A stretch of DNA of 64,000 nucleotides, taken from contig NC_088787.1 of NCBI RefSeq assembly GCF_949628265.1, positions 29,564,501 to 29,628,500 on the forward strand, written 5' to 3'. This stretch comes from Cloeon dipterum (lineage: Eukaryota > Arthropoda > Insecta > Ephemeroptera > Baetidae). Each line of letters starts with the position of its first letter. The stretch's first letter is position 1. The position numbers and the translations under genes are program-made. Below the pieces are notes generated by a model. That model made no database searches. It was given only the letters and a program-made list of their open reading frames with translations, and had not been told where the DNA came from. Shown one piece after another: positions 6,951 to 62,500 of the stretch.

Positions 6951-7481
6951 CCCCCTTCGAGGCGTCTCAAATATATGGACTGCAATTTTGGCTCTTGGCG
7001 GGTTGTACATAAATTCTTGCGCTTGCCTTGCCAATGATTCAGATAACTAGTTTGCATGCTCCATTTTCAACTCTTGGGCATTCCAAGACACGTGTTCTTA
7101 GATTTTAAGGCTATTTTTTTTACCTAATTGTAGACGTTGTTAAAATGCATTTTAAAATTAGTGTTTAACTTATTGTTTGAAACTCTAAATTTAGCCTATT
7201 TTTTGCGTATCTGACAAGCCGCTTTGATTCTGATGTAAACACTGCATAGTGATAAGAGTGTTAAATTTACAACTTTGTTATTGACCGCAAGGTACGCGGC
7301 TTCGTTGCAATGTTATTGTTGATATTCCGTCCTCTTTGTGCTGGATAGTATTACATCTTACGAAAAAGTTCTGAATTGGGCTACAAAGTGGAAAACGCGA
7401 GCCTGGTCCAAATCTTAAAACAATTAGATTCAATGAAATTAATCTGTGAGACCTGTGCCATGAAAGTGTTATTAATGTTTA

Positions 7482-7487
7482 AATAAA
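7482..7487 (+). terminator. AGMO polyadenylation signal (AATAAA)
   Basis: Canonical AATAAA about 530 nt after the AGMO stop codon, followed by an AT-rich stretch. It is the most downstream good signal before the neighbouring convergent gene. Confidence 0.5.
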
Positions 7488-7518
7488 AACTCATTAAATT
7501 ATGTATATATCTCAAGAG

Positions 7519-7524
7519 TTTAAT
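7519..7524 (-). terminator. Possible SMARCE1 polyadenylation signal (ATTAAA)
   Basis: The minus strand carries the common variant ATTAAA about 170 nt after the SMARCE1 stop. No canonical AATAAA was seen on that strand between the stop and this point. Confidence 0.3.
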
Positions 7525-7696
7525 TTACACCATTAGCAAAACAAGCAAATAATAAAATTTAGATACTTTGTAGAGGTCATATTTAAATCCTAATCACGTA
7601 AATTTTACAAGATTTAAGAGGATTCCTTCCAAACAGACTCAAGTATTTAGCAAGAGAAAAATGCAAGGACTGGATTGTAGAGCGTTACAAAAGAAA

Positions 7697-10600
7697 TCAT
7701 CCTAGGGGCGGTCCACCACCCATCTGAGGGTGGGGAGGCCCTGATTGGGGCGGTGGTCCCTGTTGCTGCGGACTCCCTGGTTGCCCTGCTGGTGAAGACG
7801 CTTTGGAAGAGCTCCTGGCACCCCTAGCGCCGCGAGAGCCACGGCCGCCGCCTCCGCGGCCCCTCTTGCCGCTTCCAGTGCCTCCAGCTCCACCGCCTAG
7901 CCCGTAATTTCAATTTTAATTGAAACATTTTTCGTCATATCAATAACCAGGTGGCCTACCTTGGCTCGGCGGTTGGCTGCCCTCAGTAGGAAGCTTAGGG
8001 CCTTCACCCTGGTACATCATATCATCGTGCTGAGGGGAAATGCCTGGCATCGGACCAGGCCGCTCTGCGCCAATTTCCTGCGGCGGGGGCCCAGCATACA
8101 TTTCGTGATGGGGAGGAATACCGACCTGAAACAAATAATTTTGTTGGTGTTTTCATACTAACATAACATACAAGTTCTCAGTTTTAACAAATTAGGTTTT
8201 TGACAATTCAAATATACAGAGCTTGCAAACTTGAAGTGAAATTTCATCCAATTAAATAATAATAAAATGTACTATCGCCTTTTTGCATCAGCACTATCAG
8301 CAGTCAAGAACACATTGCGTAAAAACTGTTGTCAAACTTTTAATCTGAAGTTTTTTTAACAGGGTCAATTAATGTATTCTAACGTTCATGCTGAACATCA
8401 ACAAGTCACTATAAATAAAAAGCAATAGCTACAAGTTAAATTGCAGATTTTCAAGTAGCATTTCATTGATATTTAATTATGGAATGAATTATATTGTTGC
8501 CAGAAATTATTGTTCAAACAACTATTTTTCATCTAACAGATGGCTTTCAGAAAAGTTACACAAGATATATATGTTATTGAAGAAAGAAAGGTTGGTCGAC
8601 AAACTCTTGATTTATCAGGGTTTTGGCAAAATATGTCTAGTTATGGATCTTAACCTTGTAAAACCTCAATAATTAACTAACCTCATGCTGCATTTGAGGG
8701 GGATAATGGTGGGGCGGCATGCCCGGCCGTGGGCCCATGGGGTGTGGTGGCATGCCCTGAGGGTGCGCCTGTGGGTGCGCCTGTGGGTGCGCCTGCGGGT
8801 GTGGGGGCATTCCTGGATACTGCTGTTGCTGCTGGGGGCCCTGCTGCGGCGGGGGCGGGTAGCCAGCCTGGCCGTAGTAGGCCATGTGCGGAGGTGGCGG
8901 CGGGTACTGCGAGTATTGTTGGTACGCCCCTGGTGGGAACTGGGGGTACTGCTGAGGGGGCGGTCGCGGGGGCAGCTGCTGAGACATCATGTATTGGTTC
9001 TGTGGAGGAGCCACAGGCGGTTGCGGTTGGCCCGGGGGAGGGCCTTGCTGAGCATGCGGAGGACCCTGGGCCCCAGGCGGCCCTTGGGGCGGCAGAGCGG
9101 CAGGCGGCGGGCCCTGCGGCTGCATTGGCGGCGCAGGACGCGGAGGGAAGGGCGGCACGTCGGTGGCCGACTCGTCAATAGTAGCTGGCGGGGGTGGTGG
9201 GACAACAGCAGGCGTCGGAGGCAGCGACGGGGGCCCAGACGAAGAGTTGTCCGCCTCTGGCTCACTGCTTGCCTCTTCCATGGGCTGAAACCAAGTTTGT
9301 TGGTAAATAAGTCGCTCTTGCTCTGACCAATGCTCTAGTTACCAGGGTGTAATATTTACAAGTGTCTAAAAAGTCCTGTAGTTTGAAATTACGCACATTT
9401 AAGAGCTTTTAAAATTGTTACCCTTCCAAGTGGTAAAAAATAACTTAAGGTTTAATCATACCTCTGGCTGTGAAGCAGAGTCTTCACTACCACCTGGTAG
9501 AGGGACTGCTGCTGTTGCTGAAGGAGCAGCCGGGGCTGCAGGCTGAGAGTCTTCCGAGGACTCTGCTCCAGATCTCTCTTGGACAGCTGGCTCGTCAATT
9601 GGCACCTTAAAAGAGACAGAATAAAACGATGGCACAGCAAATAGAGTAATTAGCTCGTACAGCTGCAGCCACAGGAGCTGGTGCAACAGGCTGCATTTCC
9701 TGTGGGGCTGACACCGACTCAACTTCTGGCACAGTTTGCTCGTCAGTAAGCAGCTGTTTGGTTTCTCCTTCAGGTGCTGGCTGAGGAGTGGCTTCTGCAA
9801 TGGTCGCGGCTGGCTGGGCGACTGGTTCTGGCTCCTCAGACACAGGGGCCGGGCTTGGAGCGGCCGCTGGCGGCACGACGGCCCTCTGGGCGCGCTCCTC
9901 ACGCTCCTTCTTCAGCAGCTCTATCTGACGCTCCACCATCTTGTTGAAAGTATCTTCATCAACAGCTCTTTGACAGTGCTGAAGTATTGAAATGAGAGCG
10001 TGATACACTAAATCCTGAAAAATTTTCATACCTTTTTCAGCTCCTCTTGGAACACTTCGCTGCTCTCCTGGAATTTCCTCTTCTTGGCGTCAAACTTTTC
10101 TTCGATCTGCTGCAACTCAGCCTCCAGCTTCTTCTGGTGCATCGTCAGAGACTGCACTTGCCTTTTGAGCACCTGCATCCTGGCGGTGGTGACCACCGAG
10201 CGCACATCAGGCACAACGGCGTCAGAGAAAATTTCATTGATGAGCCGGTGGTTTCGCAGATAACGGGAGTAAGCTACGTGCTTCACAGAGAGACCGTCAT
10301 CTTGGTCTGGAATAATTAATCCAATGACAAAACAGGCCAATAACACCGAATAAGAATTAAAGTTAATATAATATGCGATGTAGAATTGATAAAAACAGAA
10401 CGAGAATTACCATCTTCGTCTTCAGCAGGCTGGATGTCAATTCTCCGATCAACTCCCTTGCTCGAAGAAGAGCGATCTTCGTCAGCGATTTGCTGGCCTA
10501 AATTGAGCAAAAGCAATCTGAGTAAGAGAGCGGAGAAGACTAACTAAAGCGGTGTGAGTGGTTTGTGTTGGTTTAGTTTGCGATTATCGTCATCGACTGT

Positions 10601-13600
10601 TGTCGTGGATTGAAAAGCAGTCTACTACTGAATCGATCTGGTTTTAAAAGCTGCACTATGGTCTGGAGAAACTAGCAGCACAAACTCAAGTCAAAAAGAT
10701 GGGAAAGCGTTTGAATGTGTTATGACGACAGGGGACTCTCATGCGGGGTTCAGCACAAGAAGCTTTGCATCGCGCTCAATGGAATTCATCTTTGTGGGGA
10801 CGGCAAAAGAGCGGGAGGGTCTTTGCTTAATCTCTGCGTGTTTGTGTGAGGAAGAAGTCTTACCAGATTTGCCACGGTTTTTTGCAGTAATGTAGGCCAT
10901 GTAGGATGGGGAATTGTGATACGCTTTCAGGGACTTTTCATACTCGGACTGCAAGCAAGCAGAGAGAAATAAAAATAACAATCAGTTAAAGCGGATGGGT
11001 CGAAAGAGAGAGTGAGAGAGAGAAAGAGAGAGATAGAATAGAGAGATGCAGTGATGATTCATTCAATCCTCAGTCAGGCCTGCTACGACAAGCGGGTTAG
11101 AAGTAGTTTTTCTTTTCTGCCCATGTTTGTGTGTTTTTCTGTGGATGTGGAAGCTACAGGCTGGGGATGCGTCCTCTCGGGGCCCTACCTTTCGCCTTCG
11201 AGGACATCCACTGCACATACGCTGGGCTATTTTGATAAGTCTTCAACGCCTCTGAATATTCGGCCTGCAATCGAGCACGTCAAGAAAAACAAGACAACCA
11301 TAACACTTTAAAACCCAGACAGAGTGACATTAAAATTCAGAAAAAACGTGTTTCTTTTCGAAAACATCTCGTCTGATTGATTTGATTGATTTGGAAGACG
11401 CCAGAAATTACAACATGCGGTTCTGATTATTGGAAAAACACAGATTAATCCTCAAAGCTTCAAATGCTTTATAAAATGCTTCTGTGAAGCACAAAAATGT
11501 GTTTCCCCGCAAGAACAAATTTCCACCAGTACGTTCGCCAAAGAGTTGAGTGAAATTGAATAAGTGAGAAAATGAACACCACATTGAAATAAAAAACCCT
11601 CAAAAACTGAAACACTCTGGGTGCTGGTGAAACCAGGAAAGGTGAGCGAGGGTTGGCCAAAACACGCCAACCCGACCGGCCGAAGGTAAGATGGATTCGT
11701 GGGGGGCGAGGGGTGGAGGGGGTCGTTTTGGGGGAGAGTTGCCCACCTTTTCAGCCTCGTACTCCTCGACGTACTCGGTTTTGTCCTCCTCGGGCAGGTC
11801 CCTCCACATCTGGCCAATAATCTTGCCGATCTCCCAGAGTTTGAGCTCAGGGTTCTGCGCCTTGACCGTGTCCCACACTTTACGGCTGTACCGCATGTAT
11901 GGCATCAACGGCTTCTCGGGCGGCTTGGGGGGTTTGGGAGCGCGCGGGTCCACCTGTGGCCATTGGAGCAGATAGAGCAAATGTACCCCCGTGCATGCAC
12001 CACTCGGACAGCCCACATTCAACAAGGCTACAGAGTATGTATAATATATATAATATAAATGTCTAGAGTGGAAAATGATGCGGACAGAACGGAGAGCGGA
12101 AAGACAGAAATCAGGAAAATAACAAATCGAACAAAACAACCGGTCGACATCAGAGTCTAGAAAAAGGTTGTTTTGACACGCCTTCAATACTCACAGCCGA
12201 GGATTTGCCAACTTTCTGCGGAGTGAAGCCTGGGTGACTGTGAACGGTCTGCACGAAAGGGCTCTGGAAATATTCGAGGAGGTCCATGAAAAACAGTTTA
12301 ATTTATATCTAAGTAGCACATTAAAATAACACCTGAATTTTTGGAGTTTCTTTGTTACAAAATTTTATTTCAAAAAATATCATATTAAAAAGGAATATAA
12401 TTAAAAAATGAATCAGGTTTGTGCTTTGTGCGTTTAAAAAAATGAATTACCCCTGAACTCGTGGCCATGGTGGAAGTTGAAGCTCGCAGCCTCTCTGCAA
12501 GGAAGAAAAATACTCATGAGCAATTTAGTTCAGAGCTGCCGAGGCAGAAATATACCTCCTGGTGTGGTTGCACAATCCAATGAAAGCATCGGAAGAAACG
12601 TGTGTGGTTATTAATATGGCAAAAGCAATAAACAGGTGAAAAAATCTACATACGGGTGAAGATTATTCAAGTAAAAGCGCGCGTCGCATGCCCAAACTAA
12701 GTGAGTGGGGCTCGAAATTGTCTCACTTTGGCTGCGTAGTCCTTACCTTTGAGGATGTTGAAGCTGAGCGGCGCTCCAGCCGTTAGCAGAGCTGCAGTCA
12801 AACCAAACACAAGCCACAACATCAAAATTTGGAAAATAATAAATTAAATCATCAGACAAATTATGATATTAGCGATACACATTCGTCTTCTGAAGCTTAA
12901 CTAATTTAAACGATTTAAACGTTGAATATCAACAAAAAAGTCGGTTCATGCTGAGCTTTTTGAAAAAGCCAACATGCATTTCTTTATTTTAAATGGCAAC
13001 ATTATTTGAGTTATTTTCTTTTCTTTCGTATCATTATAAACGTTTAACACGAATTTCATGCTTATCAGAGCCTTTAATTAACATATTTTCAAAGCTATGA
13101 TAACATTAGTGTTAAGCATTCCGCAATAGAAAGAAACCAAATTAAGCATGAAATTATTGATTTTTTATTCATACAATACCTTCCAAGTTTAATAGCCACA
13201 CTCTTTATCAGATTCCAAAGGAGAAATTGTTGGGGAATTTTAATTTGTCTAATTTTCACAACTAATCACCTGCTCTTATTACCTTTCCTGTGATAACTTT
13301 TCATTGACCACTGGGTCAGATTAGAAACGAAATTTTAACACATAATGCATGACAAAATGACAAACTTCGGACGCCGATTTATTGTTCAGAATTTTCATGG
13401 TAAAAACAAGCTATCTACATAATTGATGTGTCCGGCTTTGTGATTTTCTCACACGTCATAATATTAAATAGCAATGGGTTTGTTACGAATAGGGGTCCTT
13501 GAATTAATAGCAAAGCAAACGGAAAAATTAGAGGGAGACAGTTTGCAATTAAAATTTAAAGTTCAATGGAAAAAGAACTCACGGTTCGCAGCCGGCAACA

Positions 13601-13643
13601 GGGGCGAGGCCGCGATTTGCTTGTAATTTGAGGGCAGCGACAT
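7697..13643 (-). CDS. SMARCE1: SWI/SNF (BAP) subunit SMARCE1/BAF57, dalao orthologue
   Basis: HMG-box subunit of the ATP-dependent Brahma/SWI-SNF remodelling complex in the nucleus, where it binds DNA and influences target choice. Exons in transcript order: 13643-13583 (ATG at 13643), 12791-12747, 12494-12451, 12263-12195, 11953-11747, then either 11264-11189 or 10948-10864, then 10497-10411, 10306-10032, 9978-9661, 9605-9462, 9284-8682, 8125-7960 and 7896-7697. Every junction keeps phase, giving 767 residues with the 10864 exon or 764 with the other. N-terminus: [12 protein letters not shown] box from about residue 83: [38 protein letters not shown] conserved segment, [20 protein letters not shown], leads into a coiled coil at about 200-291. 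The C-terminal half is a long acidic, then Pro/Gln-rich, then Gly/Arg-rich tail absent from the 411-residue human protein. The call is very secure; the first noncoding exon was not placed. Confidence 0.95.
8126..8681 (-). other. SMARCE1 intron
   Basis: Intron between the Pro/Gln-rich exon and the next exon of the SMARCE1 orthologue. The plus-strand open frame at 8466-8672 has no supporting features. I see nothing else. Confidence 0.6.
8682..9284 (-). other. SMARCE1 Pro/Gln-rich exon (201 codons)
   Basis: This single large exon encodes a nearly continuous proline/glutamine/glycine-rich tract, with runs of prolines, YPPPP and PQQ motifs and Tyr-rich stretches such as YQQYSQYPP. Such composition is typical of intrinsically disordered, prion-like regions of chromatin proteins. 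It is GC-rich compared with its surroundings. The antisense strand is also fully open, as a by-product of this composition. Confidence 0.85.
8761..8799 (-). repeat. 12-bp tandem repeat encoding His-Pro-Gln-Ala
   Basis: About three consecutive near-identical 12-bp units (plus strand GGGTGCGCCTGT) lie within the Pro/Gln-rich SMARCE1 exon. They encode (HPQA)n on the minus strand, a coding minisatellite that is probably length-variable. Confidence 0.8.
10864..10948 (-). other. SMARCE1 alternative exon B (HMG helix 3 end)
   Basis: 85-nt exon with CAG acceptor and GTAAG donor, phase 0 in and phase 1 out. It encodes [19 protein letters not shown] and ends in TAKNRGKSG. It aligns directly with the human SMARCE1 segment that follows EAEK, completing HMG helix 3. 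It is homologous to the exon at 11189-11264. Joined after that exon, its frame would hit a stop at the fourth codon. Confidence 0.85.
11002..11046 (-). repeat. CU-rich tract between the two alternative exons
   Basis: A (GA)n-like run on the plus strand, which is a UCUCU-rich polypyrimidine tract in the SMARCE1 transcript. It lies about 53-98 nt upstream of the acceptor of exon B. Such tracts are typical binding sites for PTB-family splicing repressors; a regulatory role here is inferred. It is otherwise a simple microsatellite. Confidence 0.6.
11189..11264 (-). other. SMARCE1 alternative exon A (HMG helix 3 end)
   Basis: 76-nt exon with CAG acceptor and GTAGG donor, phase 0 in and phase 1 out. 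It encodes [19 protein letters not shown] and ends in MSSKAK. It is homologous to the exon at 10864-10948: the E-Y, L-K-x-Y, NSP-x-Y and K positions are shared, about 10 of 25 residues. The open frame, consensus splice sites and protein homology together make it a real coding exon. Its Gln-Trp-Met segment replaces Ala-Tyr-Ile of exon B. Confidence 0.8.
12792..13582 (-). other. SMARCE1 first coding intron
   Basis: AT-rich intron after the first coding exon of the SMARCE1 orthologue. I see no further feature. Confidence 0.6.
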
Positions 13644-26601: not shown

Positions 26602-29600
26602 ATGAAGAGAATGCCTCTGGATGGTCTTGCAAAAAGAGGCAGCGGTTTCCAAAGGACCGTCTTTCTGCACAGATTTTGGACTGTGCTTTTCTTCGTTCTG
26701 TGTTTGCAGCAACTGGCTGAGGCACAATGGTGGCCGTTCAATACGAATTTCAGTATATTTACAAACCAGGTAATTCTTTGTTGTCAGTGAGGAGGGGTAT
26801 TTTTAGACTCATTAGCATCTATTAAGTGGAAGCAAGTGTAGTGTGTTTTTTTCAATGCTCGTTCGTGATGATAAGTGGCGGTGTGATAACATATTTTTAA
26901 TTGAATTTGGTTTTAATTTAAAGCAATATTTAATTTCACCTGAATTCGAAAAATGTACCATTGAAAAATTCACAAAAATTCCTTCCACCAGGCAATTAAT
27001 CATGACTTTAAAAATTCCCACCATGCTCTTGTATTTTGCAATAAAGTTCATTGCAAATAGTTTCTTTTTCACAATTATTAGATTTTTTGCTGTGAATGCA
27101 TTCCACATTTCGGGGGGGGGGGGGAAGGGATCTAAATATTTAAATTTTATTTAGGTTTTCAACAGGTAATTAAATTTGAAAATTGAAATTTAACATTCTG
27201 TGGCTGATTACATTGTTTTTGTTGATTTGGTAACCAGGATATTGTTATCTTTTCTGGTGACTCACAATGGGCGAGCTCCCTGGAGATTTCTGGACAGTAG
27301 AAGGAAATACCGGTTGAATGACTCAAACAACTACATTTACATAATGTTGAATTCAAGATGAATACCAATTTAAAAATTTACCAGAAAACTAATTGAATAT
27401 GGCTGCCTGATTAAATGTTATGATTCAGCCTAGACTACCTTATTTTTTATTTTCATTTCAAGGTTTGGTTAATATTCATTGTTATTTAGGGGAATGAGGG
27501 GGCAAATGATATTATATTTAACCCTCGCCAGCACACTGTAATGAGACTGAGCAAGTACGTGCTCTTTTTCTTCTCAACAACGTCACTGTTATCCTGTTTT
27601 AACTTTCTTCTTTTGCCGCCCTAAAAAGGAATTTTAGACCTAAACTGGTATCACTCAAATTCGCAGATCGAGCCAGGCTTCCGCTATCCGAAGATCGTGA
27701 GCGCCGCGCGCACACAGCAGCGCTTTCCAAAGAGCATGCACTTGCCTTGCGACAATGTGCAGATGCGTTCCGACACGGTACCGACTTCGGTGCACCAACT
27801 GCGGCCAGGTGACATCGACGTGGTTGCTGCCCTCGGCGACAGTCTGATCGCGGGCAACGGCGCCATGGAAGAGTTCGCCATGGGCACCCTCTTCGAACAC
27901 AGAGGCGTCTCCTGGTGTGCAGGTGCGAGTTCGCCCCCAAATTTTTACAGAAAAGATATTTTCCCAATCAGATTTTGCCAGTTGTTCCGCTAAAAAAGGA
28001 ATTATATGTCAATAATTCTTAAAATTTGGCATCAAAAATATTTTTATCGATGGAATAAGTAAGCCGGAGTCACGTTTGTTCTCTAATAAATAAAAGAACA
28101 GCAGTGTGTATGTACTTAAAAATTTATTTTTCACTTGGCTGACTGAAAAACTGACTCAACTGTGCAGTGAACATTAAGAGGACCATGGCTTTAAGAAACG
28201 ATAAATTTAATTTTTATTTGTTCAAATATAGTTGCTCTCTGTCAAAAATTCGCCTGACTAATAATAATAGTTACGCTTATTTACACTCAATCATTTGAAA
28301 ATTGCATTTAAACTGAATTCTCTCTCTAAATGAAGTTTTATGCAAAAATTAAGTATCATAATTTGCCGTCATTTTATGAAATGAACTTAAAAATCGTAAT
28401 GATCTCAATTTTAATTATAAAAAGCGTCTTTTTTCCTTGCCCGTGCGTTGATTTGGTTTTTGCAATTCTCATTACCACTGCATGCGGTCTGATATGATCA
28501 CAAATGACAATAATTAACATTTTGCTTTGAAAAAACTAGGGGAATGATTTAAAATAGAAAAATTTTAGGTGGTGATGGCACGTGGCACCAGTTTCTGACA
28601 GTGCCAAACATAATAAAAGAGTTCAACCCTCGGCTCAGAGGCTATTCGACTGGCAAGGGCGAGTTCCATTCGCCCAACTCAAGACTTAACGTTGCCATCC
28701 CCGTCTCGGCGGACGAGAATCTATTGCAGCAAGCTAGAATTTTGGTCGCCAGAATGAGAAAAGATTCTCAAATCAACATCCAAAAGCATTGGAAGGTTAT
28801 CATTGATTTCACCTCTCGGAGTTTTATTATTTCTCTTTTGTTTAACATCTGGATCGTTTTTTAGTTGATAACCATTTTGATTGGTGCCAATGACCTGTGC
28901 TCAAGCCAGTGCTACAAACCAGAAGAAAACACTGGCGAGCAGCATCGGCGTCAAATCGAAAGGGCACTAGACTACTTGCAAAAACATTTACCTCGCACTT
29001 TTGTCAGCCTCGTCTCGGTTGTTGGTAAGTTGAGAGCATCTCAAGATGATACAGGAACATTATTTATAATTAAACTATTTTTTTCCAGACGTTTTATCCA
29101 GCAAGAGGGTGCCATCCACCTACACGTGCCAGTTTCTGCACAGGCTCTTCTGTACCTGCTACCACAGGGGACAAAAAGCCGAAGATATGTGGAAGGTGGT
29201 GCGCGAATACCAAAAGGCGGAAGAAATGCTGGCAAGTGTTTCGCACAGAATGATGTTTAATTAGAGTCCTGTCTTATCTACACCTTTTTGTAGACTTTGA
29301 GCGGGAAGTATGACAGCAAACCCGACTTCACTGTTGTTTTCCAGCCCTTCTTGAAGGTTCTAGACGCGCCTTGGTCGGAAATCAAGTCTGGAAAGTTTGA
29401 AATGGCAGTCGACGCGAGCTACATCACCTACGACTGCTTCCACTTCAGCCAGAAAGGCCATGCAATGAGTAATAAATCATTAGTTCATGATACAGACTAC
29501 ATAAAATCCAATTGTAGTTCTTGTGTTAAAAATAGCCAGTACAAAAACGTTAATTTTTTGCATTTGAAGGCCTAATCTGTAGGAGCCACCGACAACACAT

Positions 29601-31878: not shown

Positions 31879-33418
31879 AAAAACCAGACCGTTGAGCCTT
31901 TTTTGCTCCAAAGAAAAACATATTTATCACAAGCACAACAAAATCTTACTGAAATTTAAAGTCATAGAATTTGAATAACGTTTAAATTATGCGCAAGTCA
32001 TCTTGTAAACGGACGTGGAAAGTGTACTCCTTTGCAGTCCTTCTTCTTAATTCGAATTGCAAATAATATTTTTCATACCATTTGGGTGTTGGGCGCACCA
32101 AATTTTGCAAACATTTTTCATAATTCGATTGAGCTTTGCGGTGTTAAAATTCATGTTGCGGTATAAAAGATCCACAAATGTTTTACTATTGAAATTTTAG
32201 CTTTTTTTCTAGAAAAATCGATTGTGACTTATCTATTTCAAAATTGACTTTAAATAATTATTTTAATTAACTGTTGAATTCCTTTTCCAATTAATTGATG
32301 TTACAATATGCTGTAAACTCTGACAGTAAATATGAACCTAATTTAATCCCAATTGATCATATAAAGAAATAAATATTGTTCAAATAAAATTCGACTCGTG
32401 ACGTTAAGTTCGAACATCAGATTTCAAGACCCCCTGATGATTATGTTGAATAGAGTTAATTAGTAGGTAGGATTATTTGAGCCATTTCATTCATCCGACT
32501 TCAACTTAAATCTACAGATTTGACTGCTCATTAATTGATTCGATCATGATCATACAAATAAATTGTGTTTATAGTTAAAAGCGCAGCAAGGAAACCCTTG
32601 GATCAAGATTGCATCCTGCACTGAAATTATATATATGCCCTTGAAAATTATCGCACAAGCTGTAGCACCAATAACAATCACAATTATTTTATTATTCATA
32701 CATTGTCCTACTCGGCTCTTCCCTTCTTGAAGTGGGATTGAAAACGGGCCAGTGGAGTGTTAAACAGTAAAATTGGATTGTGATCGAAATTACGAGTTGG
32801 CAACCGTGTGGTTGACGAACAATTAAATTGAACAGAAATAAGATTATTTGGATTCGCTGTGGCTCATCTTTGTGCGATAATATAATTAAGCGAAATCAAG
32901 CCATATAGCTATCTCTTGTGAATTCAAAGACATTACAACCGGCGATAAGAAATAAGTATCACCGGTCAGATAAAGAGGCTTTTATATTTTCATTTTCCTT
33001 CGACAAAGAGCCATCTAGTGCGTGCGTGCCCCGAAATTTAGGAGAAAGTAGTGATTTAAGAATTTCGAATTGAACTGAGCTGCAGGTGAGAAAATTTCGA
33101 TCATTTTTTTCAGATTGCGTGGGCAAATCTTTCAATGCATTTATTAATGTCGTGAAAGTACATTTCCAAGGTTGAGGAAATGATTTCGAAAAAATTTTAT
33201 GCAATGGAAAAAAGTCAAACCATATAATTCATGAATTGATTTGTTTCCCATCAGATTCAATCCAATTAAATTCAAATTTAAGTGATCATAAATCAAGTTT
33301 TTCTTAACTCTGTTGATTATTTCTGCTGTTATAAAAATTAAGTTGTGTATAAGATAAAATAAATACTAAGTCCGCTTACGTTTATGTTCAACTCTAGATT
33401 TTGCAAACAAGAAAAAAG

Positions 33419-34700
33419 ATGAAGTTCCCACCTCTTCGCAAATCCGTCAAAACTATCCCTTTGGATGACTACAGTTCTTCTAAGCTTGTGTTTTTTGACT
33501 TGGAAACAACTGGCTTGGGGGTGGACAGCGAGGAAATCGTCCAGCTGTCAGCTGAAACAGACAGTGAGGCGCTGAACTTCTATGTTAAACCTCGATTCCA
33601 CGGAAGAAATAAACCTGAACATAATTCAACAAATGGTCTCGTCTTCTGTAACGGAAATGTCTATAAGGGCTATTCGGGATTAAATGCAGGCGAAGAGTTG
33701 CCAGCAGTTAATCAATCGGACGCTCTGGAAGAATTTGTTACTTTTTGCGAATCCTTTGAAACTAAGGTGAGTACCTGTCATTTTTACCTTATCAAATAAT
33801 TACTTTAACTACAATTAATGCATTTAATTTTATTAAGCCTATGCAATTCTATATTTATCTAGAATCTCTTCAAAAAAAGTAAAAATAATGTACTTAAATG
33901 ATGAAAAATATGTTCAATAGAATATTAATGAATTTTCCCTTTAGGTAACAATTGTGGCACACAACGCACATTTTGACATGGGATTCCTACGGCACGCCTT
34001 ATTAGAAGATGCACCGCTTCTTGAGCGCTTTGCAAACGCATGCATTGGTTTTTTGGATACCGTCTCAGCCGCCCGCAAATTGTTGCCAAAGTCGGCTCCA
34101 GATGGTCCAAAAAACCATAAACTTTCAACCCTTTTAGAGCATTTCTTAGGAAGTGTGCAGGTAGAGCTGCACGACTCAGCCGTCGACGTTTCGTCACTTC
34201 GTGTGATCTTCCGCGACATGGGCAAAAAAAGTGATTACCAACCGTACACCTTCTTCCTCTCTGATTACTTGCGATACAAGGCTGTATATTCCAATGCAAA
34301 AGGTGTGTATTTGCCTCAGTACAAATTTATAATACCGTTTCTTATTGTTCCACGTTTCAGAATAGTTCAATACTGAAATATTTGATTGCTCTCAATTGAG
34401 CTATTTATCGTGTTTTGAATGCTCTGAATTTATTTACTTTTTGTTTGATTGTAAACATAAAAATCATATTTATCTGTTTTAGAATTGGACCGCGCTTTTA
34501 CTCATTATCAGCTTACATTGCGACCGAACCAGTTTATGCAGTTGGCCAGTGAATTTGACCTCCAGAATCTTGTAGCCTTGGCTAAAAATATGAGCAAGCA
34601 GGAATTTGCAGATGAGGTTAGATCCAAATGTGATCTTCTTTTAGAAAAGACCGTTGTCTCAATATTCGTGGGAATAAATTCAGGCCTCCCCTTACAATAA
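33419..34700 (+). CDS. DEDDh-family 3'-5' exonuclease
   Basis: Small exonuclease of the RNase T/DnaQ superfamily. Exons: 33419-33766, 33945-34302 and 34483-34700 (TAA at 34698), in phase, 307 residues. Motif I FFDLETTG supplies Asp27 and Glu29; motif II AHNAHFDMGFL supplies Asp127; motif III HDSAVD supplies His192 and Asp197, so all five DEDDh residues are present. Such proteins degrade single- or double-stranded nucleic acid from the 3' end using two metal ions. The fold resembles TREX, PolC-epsilon-like and PML-isoform-I exonuclease domains. The C-terminal third (about residues 237-307) is helical-looking and unfamiliar. No signal peptide or membrane segment. The ATG at 33419 follows AAAAAAG and is the first in-frame Met; no upstream acceptor is needed. 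A specific orthologue name cannot be given. Substrate is unknown. Confidence 0.88.
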
Positions 34701-53300: not shown

Positions 53301-54288
53301 CATTTGATTGATCGCTGCGTGAAGAATTTCTGACAACCAAAAAAGTACAGTGAATTTGTTTAATTTTCGAGGAAACTGGTAAAATCTGAATTTGTACATA
53401 TTATTCATTGATCTAATTATTGCTATACACATATAGAATTTGCTGTTAAATTAAAGAGTTACCACAATTTGTCTTGCTAGACGCGCGTTACAAACTATAA
53501 ATTTTAAAATTGAAAATTTTCTTTTATGTGATTAAACGGAAAAAATAATTTTCACTTAATTTGAAAAACCAATTGGCAAAAATCACTGCTTTCAAAAGTA
53601 ATTATTCTACATCATGGTTAAACAGTCTTTTTTAATTTTGCAATAATTTTTTAAACCGATCAAACGCTGCTTAATTTGTCGTTGAGCCAAGATCCAGATT
53701 AAAATACAGCAAATTTTACTTTCGTGAGTTAGATAGCATTGATCCACTTTAAAAGCGCCTAAATATCCTTGTTGTATTTTCACCCTAAGAAATTAAAATA
53801 AACTAATTTTGATTTTCTAGTCAAAGATCCGCGAGCTGGAGAAAAAGGCGGAACTGCAGAACGTGCGGCACGAGGAGCTGCTGCTAGAGATGGCCGCGAT
53901 CAAGCGCACAAACCAACAGGCGCAGGGCGGCGTCGGGGCGCCGCCGTCGGCGCCGCTGACGCCGACCTCGCCGTGGAAGACGAAACTGGGTCAGGTGACG
54001 TGCGAGTTGTCGCCGTCCGAGTCGGCGTCCAGCGTTGGTGAGTTCAAGCGGGCGGAACTGGCGGCCCTGTTCCAGCACAATGGCGGCAGCACTCCCAGTA
54101 GCACCACCACCCACCATCCCACCACTACCCTCAACAGCACGGCGCTGCAAGCAGCAGGTTTGCCCCCGCGGCCCCCCTGACACAACACATGAGCTCGAAA
54201 GAACTCACGTTTGTTTCTCTGTCTCTCTTTCTCTCAGTCTTTCGAGGCTCACACACACACTCGCTCGCTAACCGACACACTCTTTGAT

Positions 54289-54340
<52 letters not shown>

Positions 54341-56550
54341 TCGTTCTTCGTTATATTATGTACTTTTCCCAGGCTCTTCCGCGCGCCGTTTTTTGTTCTC
54401 CGTCCTCTCACTGGACTTCTCGTCACCTTGTTTTTGAAGAAAGTGGCCCTCTGATTTGCAGGGATGCGCTTTCGCGGTCTTTTTTTACAATTTTTTTAAC
54501 TTTTCCATCAAAGGCTTGCAGGAGATGCAGTTTAATCCCCCTGTGTTGAGATTGCATTTTTTAATATTATTTCGTGGATTTTTGAGCAGCTGACGCGTTA
54601 ACAAAATAAAAGTTGCTGTAAAATTCTGGATAAATGGTTCAATTTAATTTAGCTCAAATTTTCCTCTATAAAAAGCTACAAAAAACAATAATTATTCCCT
54701 CTCCGCAAATCACATTAAAAAATAAAAAAAAAAAAACAGTGAAAGATCAACTATGTCAGCAATCTAATTTGAGTGTAAATATAAAATTAATTTTCTAGTT
54801 TAATTATTGTTAATCGTCAGCTTGAACTACACGTTACACCCCCAGAAATAGAATACTATGCATAGTTTGCAGTTTTAATGACGAAAATTCCAGGCATTGT
54901 TATATCAAAATACAGAGGTTAAATTTAGCGAGTGCAAAATTGCCAAAACCTTTTAAACTTAGTACAAACCATTTAAAATCCAAGGAACTAAAACACACTC
55001 TTTCAACCCTACGCCCTGGTTACTCGCAGATGAACCGCAACCAGGTAGTATATCTCACTGATAAGTTACTATTTTATTATTATTCCATATTAAGTAACTT
55101 ACTTGATGCTCGACCTCCCATTTTCCACACTTTTGCTAAGGAAATACTTGATCGCATTATTTTCTCCAGCTTCTCGCGCCGCATAAATATTTTCTCCAGA
55201 CGAAAATATGATGACATGTTGTATTTGCGCTCGATTTTAGTTTTGGCATGCATTATGTCTTATTTTTCTGCGGCAGCCTGGTCGGCTTGGCCTCAATCCA
55301 AGATTTGACACACACTGCTCATTTCGCCTCTTTTTTCTCTCCTTCTGTCTGTCCACTAGACTACTACATTTCCCGTCTTCTCTCTTTCTCACTATCTCTT
55401 TTCATCTTTGCCTGCTGCTGTTTGAAAGAATAATTTCAGATTTGTCTTTCCTCTCCCTTGTTTTGCATAAAACCGAATGTTGAAACTAAAGACCATCCAA
55501 CCATTTTGATGAATGCACATTTTTAATTCAAAACGACTCTGAATCAGTTCCTATATATTGACCTATTTACTTTTATTTTGAGTAAATGCATCTTAAGGTT
55601 TTTGAATTATTTTATTTTCTTGTAAAGAATAATAGTTTATTTTAATGTTGGGTATGAAAGAAAGCTTCAAACAGCAGCAAAAAAAATTATTTTTGTATAT
55701 AATTAGAATTGATCACTTGACAATCAGATAAAAATATTCCTAGGAATATAGCAAATATAGTGTTCACAAATTAAGACCCAAAATTAAAAATTTCTGGAAA
55801 GCTTCATCTATAGTCTTCTTTTGTGTAGTATTAAACACAGAGTTTGTAAGTATAAATTCAACGGCAGAAAAGTTGACACCAATATATACAAACCTGTAAT
55901 GAAAAAACTTAAACTATTAAAAAAAATTCCAAAACATGTTGCATATTTCAAACTTTTTCTATTCGCCTTATATTGATAATTAAAATTCCAACATTTTTGA
56001 AGTTCTTTAAAACAAAGCTATATGCTTATAAAATAGATAACGTAGGCCCTTCTATTGTTAGTGTGCAGAAATCTTTAATTTTGGTTTTAAGTGGAACCTA
56101 TCTTTGTATTGTAAATCTGATGTATTTTACATTAAAAGCATTTGCATATAGAATTGAGAAGCTTTGAGGCCTCAAACTCAAGCCTTTTTTGGTCCGAGTC
56201 TCTGTTCTGGCCAAAAATCGTGTGTGTTGATCGCAACTTGAGAGAGCAGCCCCAAAACCGACACCCGTGTGTATTTCGCTTTTGCAGCTCTGTACCAAGC
56301 GGCTGAGGCTTCAAGACTGCATGACGAGTCGCATTGCTTTGCCTACCACTCAGCATGCCTCAGGCCACTTAGCAGTAAGCATCATCAATCCCCATTTGCA
56401 GCCCCCGCGGTCGCTCCCGCCGCCTCCGCCGCGCCCACCCGGCCCCCGCAGCAGCACGACACCGAAATTGACCGCATTATGGCTAAAATAGAGCAGGATA
56501 ACCGTATATTGGCCGAGCTAGATAAGTCTAGGTCCACGGTCCAGCACCAA

Positions 56551-56589
<39 letters not shown>

Positions 56590-59500
56590 ACCTCAGCCGG
56601 TAAGAAACTTTTCCACACCAACAACATCAACCGCGGTGTCCTTTCAATTATTATTCTGATGATAATGTGGCAGCACGAGATTCTCGTTGCGTGGCTTTCT
56701 TGATCGAGTGTTTTTTAAACGGAGCTATACTGTGACGGAAATTCTCTGGGAATGCGAATCTGTGGAATTTCAGTTTTGAATAAATGGTATACAGAGACGA
56801 AAAGTATTCAACCAAACAGTGTCCGAAATCAATTTCTAACGCAGAGTTTTAAAACATGGTCTCATTTTTATCTGTTACAAATCATAAAAATATGGTGGGT
56901 ATATTCTTAAAAAAATTCTGACAGTTGAAGCTATAAAACTTTCTTTTGCTATAAAAACTTGAAGAAAAAGTCCAGACTCGCATTTTCAAAGAAAGGAGTG
57001 AGAAGCTGGAAGGAAATTAATTGCGAAGCCGCCGCCGCGTCGGAAGCGTAAACAAAAGTGCTGCCTGCAAACCGCTCTGCGAAAACACGAAAACAAACAC
57101 CTCCTGCTCACCTACACGCCACACTCCACTTCTGACATCTGTCCCATGATATCCGCCCCCGTTCACTGGCACACGCTTGGATGAAAAAACCCGCCACGTC
57201 CCCGCATTCTGTCCACCAGCCCTGCTGTCACTGTCTCTTTGAAACTATTATGATGTGTAACCTTTTTGATTTGATTATACATCTATTTTTGATATAATTA
57301 TAAACAATTATTATAATCTCTGTGTCACACACACTGCTCTGATTGCGTTTTGGTCTCTTCTCCTTGTTTGTTTGCATACGTTTTCTTGTGTTTGCTGGGT
57401 CGCGTGTCGATCGATTCGCGCGTAAAAAGGCGATTTGGCGTACGTGATGCTGGAGCCACCCCCGCGGAGGCACGCTCTGCTGCCTCCGACGCCGTCCAGA
57501 AGGAGGCGGCACCACTCGAGGGTGCCGAGGGTCACCTTCGCGAACGGAGCTGAGTCTGCGGCGTGCAGGGCGGCTCGTAAGTCCACCTCGCTCAAATCCA
57601 TCACTCACCACATTTAATTTTGACTAGAATGCTCAAACTGTCTCTCTCACTAACACTCACACCACCACCACTACCACCACCAGCATCAACCAGCTCGCTC
57701 TGTTCGTTCTCCCCTGTGACAACAATTTACATATTTTGAGAATGCGATACAAATAAATCAAAATGAAACGTCTGTACTAAAACAGAGCAGATCGTAGTAA
57801 CTGTCTTGGAAAGGGTTAAAGGGACATGGCCGTACAAATATTTTAATCACGTTAAAAAATCTGAAAATGAAGGTGCAGCTGGATTTTGTTTTTTAAAGCA
57901 ATCACTGCGTCTGCGGCCAGTGCATCATAACGTCATCAGTAACGATAAGGTCTCGTGACTTTTATCTCTCTGATTGTTGATCTTTATCGATCGTTTGATA
58001 TAAATTGCATAATTAAGCGATATCATACAATCTATTAAATTAATGAAACAGTTAACGCATCCTCATCTTCGCCACCCTTTAAATGACGTGACCTTTTTCC
58101 AGCGCTTGCGGCCGGTTTAAAAAATTCAACAGTGCTTTTACTTTTGATTTTTTGGAGGACATAAATACAAATTGTTTTTCGACGTTCATGTCCTTTAACC
58201 TTTTGGTGGAAATGCGTTTGATTAGTTAAAACTGAGAATATATCGTCTGATGTAAATTTTCAACTTGTATTAGAGTGCATTTTGGACAGTGCCAAATATC
58301 TAGTATCTTGTGCAAGGTATTGCCGCGATAGCAATGAATTATAGAATCTGGTGATTGTGTCGAGGTTGACAAACATACTGTTATATCGCTGCTTTTGCCT
58401 GATTATCACATGTGTATTCGACCGTTCATAACTCATATTGGCGTAGTTCAGTAGAAGATTGGTTGGTTCTTGAAAATCAGCGTGTGTGGAATCATTAATT
58501 AATTGGTGGTTACGAATTATCAGTGGCTTTAGAATTAATTATACTGTGGTCTCTAGCAATGTTCGTCAGTGGTTGACATGCGTTCGAAAAAAGAAATTGG
58601 GCTTATGATTTTTTAGCAAAACTTAGTTCTTCTCTTATTTGCTTTTGACTTGGTTTGTTGCTTTTATCTGTTACGTTTGGTTAATAAGTGTGCTACGTTC
58701 TATTTTGAGTTTGCTCTGACTATCACCTCCCACGCCCTCCAACTTTTACTGACAACTCTTGCGCTCTCTAAAATTTCATTTCAACAAACTGCCGCAAGCA
58801 TTTTGTTGAGTGAAACCCTGGACGGCTTGCCCTCCTGCCTCCCCGGCGCGGCACCGGCCCCACCTGCGCCCCTCTAACGCTCTCCCCTTCTTGCAGCCTA
58901 CCCCCCTGGCGTGAATCCCTCGGCCGTCGAGTACCAGCCGGCGCTCAGCGCCCAAATGATGATCCTCAACCCGCAGACGGGCACCCTGGTGCCCCAGGGG
59001 CCTCTGACTGCCGCACAAAGCCACATGCTGTCAAACCCTGCCGCCGGCCTCCTTTCCCAGGCCGGACCCGCCGGCCTAATGGGCCAGCAGTCGACGGCCG
59101 GCCTCCTGCCCAACACGGCGTCCGCCGGCCCCTTCCACCAGCAGCAGGGGCTCCTCGGCACGCAGCTGGGCGGGCCCGCGTCGGCGCCCCTCTCCATTTC
59201 GAGAATCATGCCCAAAGTGCCGGCCATGGCCACCCTGCCGCCAATCTTCAGCACGCCGCAGTTCGCGATTCACGACGGTCAGTGACTCAATATTTTATTA
59301 ATTGAGATACAAGTTTTTCATCAATTATTTTAACAAAGAACAAAAAATTTAAAAAATCACATCTCTGGCATTTGCTCAGATAGCAATTTGGAACAATTGC
59401 TTTACAGGGAAATCAAACTATTTGGAAAAGTTGTTGAATGTCTTAAGTTAAATCCTACATTTACAATTCAGCCATTCCTGCAAGCGCGGAAAGGATTTGA

Positions 59501-62500
59501 AAATTTTAATACTTTGTTTTTGCTATGCACCTGAACGAGGACAAGCCTGTTTTCTGTCAAGCTTTTTTATCTAACGCAAGCCACCGTCATAAAACCCGTT
59601 AAGTTAATGTTGGAAAAGTGAGTGTATCCGCATTCGAACCGAGACTAGCTACCAAAGGTTGAATTTCCCGTAACAATCTTTCCTATCCGAGGTGCTCTGG
59701 CAAAAAATGAACTCGTTTTTTAGTTTCCTTTTTTTTTCAACGCATGTTGCATATGGAATATGTTTTCAAAATATGTTAAAATTTTTAATGAAATTATTTT
59801 CCGTGTTTTAATGGAATTGAAATGAATCCAATTGTAAAATTTATATTTAAAATCGTACAAAATTTTGTACATTTTACGCCTTTTTCTGTGTGGGAAGCTA
59901 TATCTGATGTTGAAAAATGTGTTAATATCTAGTAATTCTGCTTAACAGGCACAGGTTTGATGAATGGTGGCATTTTGGGCCCAGCTGGGATGCTGACTGA
60001 CCAAATGATCACTGACAACAAACTCCTGGACATGCTGGACATTCCAGGAAAAGGCAGATGTTACGTCTTCATGGCAAAGTGAGTGTAAAAATCCAGTATT
60101 AGGTATTTTATAAAATCCAAATAATTAAAACTTACACAATAATGTGATAAAAGGCTGCTTCCATATAATATAAGTTGATGATGACACGAACATTCTCCAT
60201 TTTTCCCCAATGCAGATATACGTACGACCCGTTCACCCAATCGCCGAACGACCACCCTGAGGCTGAATTGGCGGTGAACGCTGGCGACTACCTGCTCGTC
60301 TGGGGCAACATGGACGAGGACGGCTTCTTCGATGGCGAGACGCTGGACGGCCGACGCGGCCTCGTGCCTTCAAATTTTGTGCATAAGCTGATCGGTGACG
60401 AGCTGCTTGAGTTCCACCAAATGGCCGTCTTGGGGATTGCAGGGGGCCCTGAGGAGCCCCACTCGACCTCCATCCCCCACGGCATTGAAAGTGCAGAATT
60501 CGACGCTGTTGGTAAGTATTAATGTAATGTTGATGCGCATGATAAAACTCACAATCAGTTGGAAATATGCTAATTTATTTGTTTGAAACTGTGTCATTTC
60601 CTTTTTTCTTCAAAAGTACATCAAATATCTAAATGTTTTATTGAAATTTGGTTCAAATATTGACATAATGAAGTTTTGAGTTTTTTTTAAACAATTTGTA
60701 AATTTTATGAATTATTTTTCCAAAATGTGCTTCATTGATATTTTCCCTATATAGCTAAAATAAATGTTGTTTTGACGTGGTAGTCACATTAACATCCAGA
60801 ACAACTACTTAAAAGTTGTGATCATTAATTTTCCCATTCACTTCAACTGTGAATTTTGAGTATTGCGTGTGTTACGACGTTGTTTTTTGACCGAAAGAAG
60901 ATATGCAACTGTACAGGCAAGCGAGTCCGGCGGGCAGCCTACGCGCCAAATTCCCCAACAAAATGCAAAATGCGTTCGACAGGGCGAAGCGCGTGCTGTC
61001 AGGCTCACACGGCGACCTGCCGCTCATCACTTTGCAGGCGCCGTCACCTGAGCACGTTCCCTCGCCGGCACCACCCGACCCTTCAGGTACTCACGCTGCA
61101 GGCGGAGCACTCACACGCAGCTAGCAGCCTAGATAACCCAACTAACTAACCTTTCAGCTGCTCGACTAACCTGCTGTAAATTTTGCTGATCGCCCCAATA
61201 ATAACTTTTAATTGCAGATCATCATTTAAAAATGCATCAATTTTTCCATGCTTATTTAGATATTCGTAGAGTTCAACTTTCCCTCGCAAGTTTGGATTTT
61301 CCTCCTTTCAAAGCTTACAAAAAACTCCTCTGCATGGTGAACAAAGGTAGATTGAATTATTGCTTTTTACCTCGGAGCGTGGACAATTATTTTAGTTTCA
61401 AGATTTTCATAGAGATCAAGATGAATTCCAAAAATTAAACCATGCAAAAGATTCGAAATTCGATAATTATAAATTTAGATGTAAGTCAGGGTTAGAATGA
61501 ACTCGAATTTGAAAAAAAAAATGTTGAATCTCCTGGCAACGTTTGGAGCTTTACAGGTTCAAGGACTAGGTTTAAGGATTAGCTTAACAAACATTTATTT
61601 ATGACATGATACTCCAAAGGCTGGAAAAGACGAAAAACTAGTTTCTCAATTTCAATTTTGACATTTTCATTTAAGAATAATCAGTTGCTTGGAACAGTGC
61701 ACAAAATTGTTTCTTTTGCGAAAGCAAAGGTAAAATTTTTGTATTATTATTTTATTCGCTTGTAAAAGAAGTGTGAATTACACTTCTGCAAATTCTAAAT
61801 GAAAATAACGGATTGAGATCTGTGATTATCGTCTTTCCCAATTCATATAAAACATGGCACTTGAATTTCCTCTTTTTAAAGGCCGTTGGTACAGCATCTC
61901 CGATCTAATCGTATTTTCACTTTTTCAACTCCTTGTAGTCTTCTACACAGTCTAACGATTAATAGTATTTTGAAGAGTAATGTATTGATGATATCAGCAC
62001 TTAATCTCTGCTAAAATTAAAATGCTAGAATAATATTTGAAGCACGCATCAAGCTGTTCAAATCTAAATTTTTCGCAATACTTTTTTTCACAGATGGAAC
62101 GTACGTGAAACGCCTTGGCCCCGAGTACAGTTACCTGGAGCTACAGGACATCATGGAGGACGAAGAAGAAATGCCTCTGGGCGAGGGTCCAGGTAAGCGT
62201 CCTGAGCAATGATACACTTGTGAAAAGGTTCCACACTTGGTTTTCAAACACTTTTCACCGACAATCACTATTTTTATATTATCTGATTTTAACTTGTTCC
62301 TTCACAATTCCATTTATGCACTTAATGAGCACATTTGCCTCCGTTTTTTTATACACATCTCAATGTTAATATCTTCTTACCAAGTTAACATTATTTTTAT
62401 ATAGAAAAGGGAGCTTCTGTACGTATTTGACACGCCTGAGAGCAGTTTTCCTTATGATATTTACACTTTTGCACTTTTAGTCAATTGCTGATCATGAGCA

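Follow-up and report, generated by a model that had tools for sequence, protein, structure and literature searches.

The 64-kb window analyzed here, a 64,000-nucleotide stretch of the Cloeon dipterum genome, contains a SMARCE1/BAF57/dalao gene on the minus strand, from position 13643 to position 7697, with 13 coding exons per isoform. In our gene model, all exons of which lie on that strand, the first coding exon (13583..13643, 20 aa) encodes an N-terminus resembling that of other insect SMARCE1 proteins (e.g., P0116). Two short exons of the extended model, n2 (12747..12791, 14 aa) and n3 (12451..12494, 15 aa), come next, followed by e2 (12195..12263) and by the constitutive exon e3 (11747..11953). 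The latter encodes the bulk of the HMG box, recognized by Pfam HMG_box, and ends in phase 0 on the peptide EYEAEK, with GAG GCT GAA AAG as its last codons and gtgggc as its donor. Downstream of the two alternative exons A and B, described below, the model continues with e5 (10411..10497), which is joined in phase 1 by either A or B, and with e6 (10032..10306), where the conserved C-terminal BAF57 region begins and which could be aligned to human SMARCE1 (chain 6lth_Q). Exons e7 (9661..9978), e8 (9462..9605), the proline-rich e9 (8682..9284), and e10 (7960..8125) follow, and the last coding exon, e11 (7697..7896), includes the stop codon.

The identification of this gene as the BAF57/dalao orthologue, made in a preliminary description of the locus, was supported by structural, domain, and phylogenetic comparisons. 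Human SMARCE1 (6lth_Q) was the best solved relative (E 4.5e-90; query residues 17-275 against chain residues 45-305), and the Pfam HMG_box family (PF00505) matched the A and B forms with 68.6 and 68.8 bits, respectively, against a cut-off of 25.4. In a tree of the constant part of the protein (36 rows and 255 columns, five chosen rows having been dropped as unparsable), the mayfly gene was sister to that of Ephemera danica with support of 91/84, the two being 95% identical over 200 columns. A search of 7987 scored proteins yielded 1252 homologues at E ≤ 0.001. The B-type segment of the mayfly is close to the standard SMARCE1 form, in line with the earlier view of exon B as the ordinary SMARCE1 sequence. 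The mayfly protein resembles known SMARCE1/BAF57 (dalao, BAP111) of SWI/SNF in both its HMG box and its conserved C-terminal region, but in the mayfly gene the segment that follows EYEAEK also exists in an A-type version.

Exon A (11189..11264; 76 nt, 25 aa plus 1 nt) and exon B (10864..10948; 85 nt, 28 aa plus 1 nt) both have AG/GT borders and are separated by an intron of 240 nt. Each is entered in phase 0 after e3 and leaves one base that joins e5, and re-reading of the exon borders and frames returned the same coordinates, splice sites, and phases as had been proposed for the pair. A message with A only encodes 764 aa and one with B only encodes 767 aa, with a single terminal stop in each case. 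When A and B are joined, translation reads V-R-V-stop, that is, it ends at the fourth codon of B, whereas skipping of both exons shifts the frame and leads to a stop in e6; the computed frames thus agreed with the consequences previously claimed for double inclusion and double skipping. Given that either event brings an early stop, truncated protein and message degradation would be expected. The further claim that the reading frame enforces a one-of-two choice held, with one qualification: full-length protein would come only from messages carrying exactly one of the two exons, but the frame by itself leaves the selection made by the spliceosome unexplained.

The proposed homology of A and B was confirmed, with 10 of 25 residues common to the two peptides and a BLOSUM62 score of 66 that was never attained in 200,000 shuffles of A. 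When both strands of the window were scanned, scores of at least 40 against B came only from A and from B itself. At the nucleotide level, 40 of 75 positions are identical, and different codons are used at six of the ten shared residues, indicating that the duplication is old and that neither exon is a recent copy of the other.

The preliminary description had suggested that exon A be sought in other insects to date the duplication, a search that we ran at the protein level. As a query, the mayfly exon A region alone found 10 proteins, all of them B-type and the named ones from cockroaches; for this reason a composite query was used, which gave 36 matches at E ≤ 10, including 28 A-type sequences. 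The best 120 of the 1252 homologues contained four A-type segments with Gln-Trp and two sand-fly-like variants. Altogether, 153 homologues were sorted into 30 A-type and 116 B-type rows, with seven rows set aside as not insect-like, judging by their look. Among the A-type rows, 28 are lepidopteran, recognized by species name (13) or by a lepidopteran linker after the exon (15), and the other two, P0095 (Phlebotomus argentipes isoform X2) and P0117, are sand-fly-like, more divergent, and carry Thr-Trp. This distribution favors the duplicated-exon reading, and the idea that A is unique to the mayfly genome was rejected. No A-type segment was seen among the bee, beetle, bug, cockroach, and stick-insect proteins fetched, from a collection in which clustering at 90% identity can hide isoforms; dating by the absence of A from other orders was dropped on that account.

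Four positions of the segment distinguish the two types. Given that A rows were selected by Gln-Trp at positions 18-19 (28 rows) or by hand (the two sand-fly-like rows), the presence of Trp-19 in 30/30 A rows and 0/116 B rows is partly a product of construction. Glu-5, which was outside the selection criteria, nevertheless divides the 146 insect-like rows identically (30/30 A, 0/116 B). Gln-11 occurs in 27 of the 30 A rows and in none of the 116 B rows, and Ala-1 in all 30 A rows and in four B rows. Mayfly exon A has Ala-1, Glu-5, Gln-11, Gln-18, and Trp-19. Three of the seven rows that are not insect-like have Glu-5 and two have Trp-19, so that the signature is partly present outside the A/B pair. 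Five of these SMARCE1 forms (P0147, P0149, P0151, P0152, and P0153) mix A-type and B-type residues within the segment, and they may represent either a pre-duplication state or an A form outside insects.

Protein records from Lepidoptera also bear on whether both versions come from one gene. In five lepidopteran-looking cases, the A and B proteins derive from contigs of equal length, which we took to be the same contig, and the seven A/B protein pairs compared differ at 0-2 of the 441-509 positions that could be aligned beyond the exon. A partial and mispredicted Choristoneura protein (P0123) contains A followed by B, the order found in the mayfly. The A-type protein P0138 corresponds to a 540-aa frame in a contig of 2,847 bases, which suggests that this contig is a spliced transcript. 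In sand flies, A and B were found in separate records, with 545 and 516 of 658 positions outside the exon identical, and the sequences thus make a pair within one gene likely there, rather than established.

A tree of 17 distinct A peptides (mayfly, Lepidoptera, and sand-fly-like) against 77 B peptides and the human sequence placed all A peptides in one clade with support of 100/95. This tree rests on 25 columns with a bootstrap that had not settled; identical peptides entered once, and the seven not-insect-like rows, P0122 (mis-joined), P0050 (odd make-up), and P0113 and P0123 (both unparsed) were omitted. A single duplication that would have given rise to A and B, most simply before mayflies diverged from other winged insects, is the reading that these comparisons favor. 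The alternative is that the exons form a real mutually exclusive pair, but that mayflies, Lepidoptera, and sand flies each duplicated the exon on their own and have Glu-5 and Trp-19 in common through convergence or retention of ancestral residues. We consider this improbable, given that the best tree unites all A rows, and that the tree with a separate mayfly duplication is 27.6 log units worse, although on 25 columns the AU test did not reject that topology (p 0.137, and p 0.059 when the not-insect-like rows were included). Mayfly A matches lepidopteran A peptides at 14-16 of 25 residues and its own B at 10 of 25, which also speaks against separate events; six distinct insect B peptides reach 14/25 with mayfly A as well, so this raw identity is not decisive. 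The occurrence of A before B in the mispredicted Choristoneura protein, as in the mayfly, is a further point against independent origins.

Several details of the trees and sequences count against a single duplication. A group of mayfly and lepidopteran A that left out the sand flies had support of only 68/0, and the long sand-fly branch drew a warning from the program about long branches coming together at that point. When the not-insect-like rows were included, P0149 and P0151 stood beside mayfly A in an unstarred group (80/69), mayfly A fell in a starred set of 17 rows also holding P0149 and P0151, and a tree in which mayfly A grouped solely with lepidopteran A scored 11 log units below the best one (p 0.27). 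Parts of the signature appear in the not-insect-like P0147 (TE...QAW), P0149 (GE...RQW), and P0152 (VE), and Glu-5 is found in the human protein. Human SMARCE1 and P0152 combine this A-like Glu-5 with His-11 and Tyr-19 as in B, from which it seems that each copy kept some ancestral residues and altered others.

To see what the exchange would alter in the protein, we compared two AlphaFold models, made for the A form (P0134) and the B form (P0076) found in one lepidopteran case. The two models had identical helices and the same fold; given that the model alignments mixed A and B rows, a common fold was favored in these models. In both models the exon supplies the final twelve residues of HMG helix 3, which is interrupted immediately ahead of the Pro of S-P, and then a fourth helix, about 20 residues long, that continues beyond the exon. 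Model confidence was 87-95 block-wise through most of the exon, but the models as a whole were poor, with a mean pLDDT of 54.6 and 57.5. The B-form model had its best fold match in the human BAF57 HMG domain (PDB 7CYU; 76% identity over 62 columns). The chain of that structure, 71 residues long, reaches about eleven residues into the alternative segment, so that most of this segment is absent from it. At position 5, 115 of 116 B rows have Lys or Arg and all 30 A rows have Glu, so that the charge is reversed close to where helix 3 ends. The earlier proposal of two forms with different DNA-contact regions went beyond this evidence: what the exon encodes is the final part of helix 3, the kink, and the next helix, and the fold is the same in the models of both forms.

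We infer that exon A is used in the mayfly and that some mechanism selects between it and B. The donors of the two exons each match 7 of 9 consensus bases, and pyrimidines occupy 16 of the 20 positions from -23 to -4 at the B acceptor and 13 of 20 at the A acceptor. A pyrimidine-rich tract with CT repeats (10951..11050, minus strand) lies upstream of the exon B acceptor and may be a regulatory element. Direct repeats at 11002-11047, GA-type on the plus strand and CT-rich on the gene strand, sit in the intron just upstream of exon B and are a possible splicing-repressor site; if we may guess, the tract of B would suit control by a polypyrimidine-tract-binding repressor. Pairing between introns gave no signal in this one species: duplexes of equal strength arose in 96, 43, and 48 of 100 shuffles, and the best continuous helices were matched in 21, 40, and 33 of 60 shuffles. 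Repeats likewise did not exceed chance; the one inverted pair of 16 nt that brackets the two exons (10709-10724 with 11299-11314, 88%) was probably due to chance, and Rfam returned 0 matches at gathering scores in 7000-13500.

The weaker pyrimidine tract at its acceptor would fit a view of exon A as a decaying relic, or as a poison exon, that is rarely used in the mayfly and mainly lowers the output of the gene. We regard this as very unlikely. A message with A alone leaves the frame of 764 aa open, so exon A is not a poison exon, and a relic is at odds with intact splice sites, a donor as close to consensus as that of B, and a peptide that retains all five residues listed above for mayfly A. 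An artefact of assembly or gene modeling, e.g., a misplaced pseudogene fragment, can be dismissed, given that exon A keeps the reading frame of a single gene whose flanking exons are conserved, that it has A-type relatives in other orders, and that its peptide found a single place in the 190-Mb assembly of 10 contigs, the two matches being exon A and, weakly, exon B in a search with scoring confined to the best candidates.

Taken together, we put at about 85% the probability that mayfly SMARCE1 has in A and B a mutually exclusive exon pair, which stems from one old tandem duplication and yields two forms of the HMG-box region. After that duplication, B would have retained the usual SMARCE1 look, and A carries a conserved signature of Ala-1, Glu-5, mostly Gln-11, and Trp-19. 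The resulting proteins would have the same predicted HMG-box fold and would differ at the end of helix 3, the kink, and the following helix. The likely outcome would be two SWI/SNF forms, presumably differing in function, whether in how strongly they bind DNA or in the docking surface that they present beside the HMG box. On sequence grounds, the pair is real, old, and mutually exclusive, has A-type relatives in two further insect orders, and occurs in an unexpected gene.

Tandem mutually exclusive pairs are known from Cacophony in insects and crustaceans (in the accessible portions of PMC9741552) and, in the literature as far as it was available, from insect Dscam and nAChR alpha6. These likewise consist of homologous neighboring exons, and they share with A and B the same phases, a length that is not a multiple of three, great age, and a fold-preserving substitution, the last being predicted for A/B. 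In contrast, Cacophony, Dscam, and nAChR alpha6 are channels or receptors, whereas A and B belong to an HMG-box subunit of a chromatin remodeler, and competing intron pairing of the kind known from Dscam-type docking-selector control did not exceed that of shuffles in the one species considered. The literature searched, as far as its text was accessible and with supplementary files and most subscription journals outside the search, held no description of such exons in SMARCE1, dalao, or BAP111, in line with the earlier remark that the pair is undescribed for SMARCE1. Four papers that deal with mutually exclusive or tandemly duplicated exons (PMC3303723, PMC5740500, PMC9741552, and PMC6071210) do not mention SMARCE1 in their main text, and PMC3303723 and PMC6071210 do not mention dalao or BAP111 there either.

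SWI/SNF diversity is usually ascribed to subunit swaps from gene families. According to the accessible portions of the sources, BAF57 is present in all BAF and PBAF complexes (PMC6862534) and GBAF lacks it (PMC9839376). The latter source, in the same portions, reports splicing isoforms of human SMARCE1, with the importance of such variants largely unexplored, and cites work on N-terminally truncated forms in neurons (Kazantseva 2009, as cited in PMC9839376). If our reading is correct, splicing would let one BAF57 gene supply the region next to its DNA-binding box in two versions, and the frame would forbid mixtures. Retention of both forms in mayflies, Lepidoptera, and sand flies, if it holds, would imply that each is under selection. 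We lean, with some reserve, toward a broader reading, in which the exons act as a binary splicing switch in the HMG box of a predicted core SWI/SNF subunit, yielding two functionally distinct remodelers, kept since early winged insects and overlooked because the change amounts to only about 25 residues. The history of winged insects spans about 400 million years. Both forms are already in public lepidopteran protein records, where the switch apparently went unremarked, and the silkworm and other moths offer a direct testing ground for it.

Elsewhere in the window, three groups of plus-strand frames were noticed by eye. Frames at 27600-29300 carry GDSL/phospholipase-B-like motifs (ALGDSLIAGNGA and GANDLCSSQC), those at 33398-34376 are similar to a DEDDh exonuclease (FFDLETTGLG and AHNAHFDMGFL), and those at 53800-63700 resemble exons of a RIM-binding protein, with SH3 and fibronectin type III pieces.
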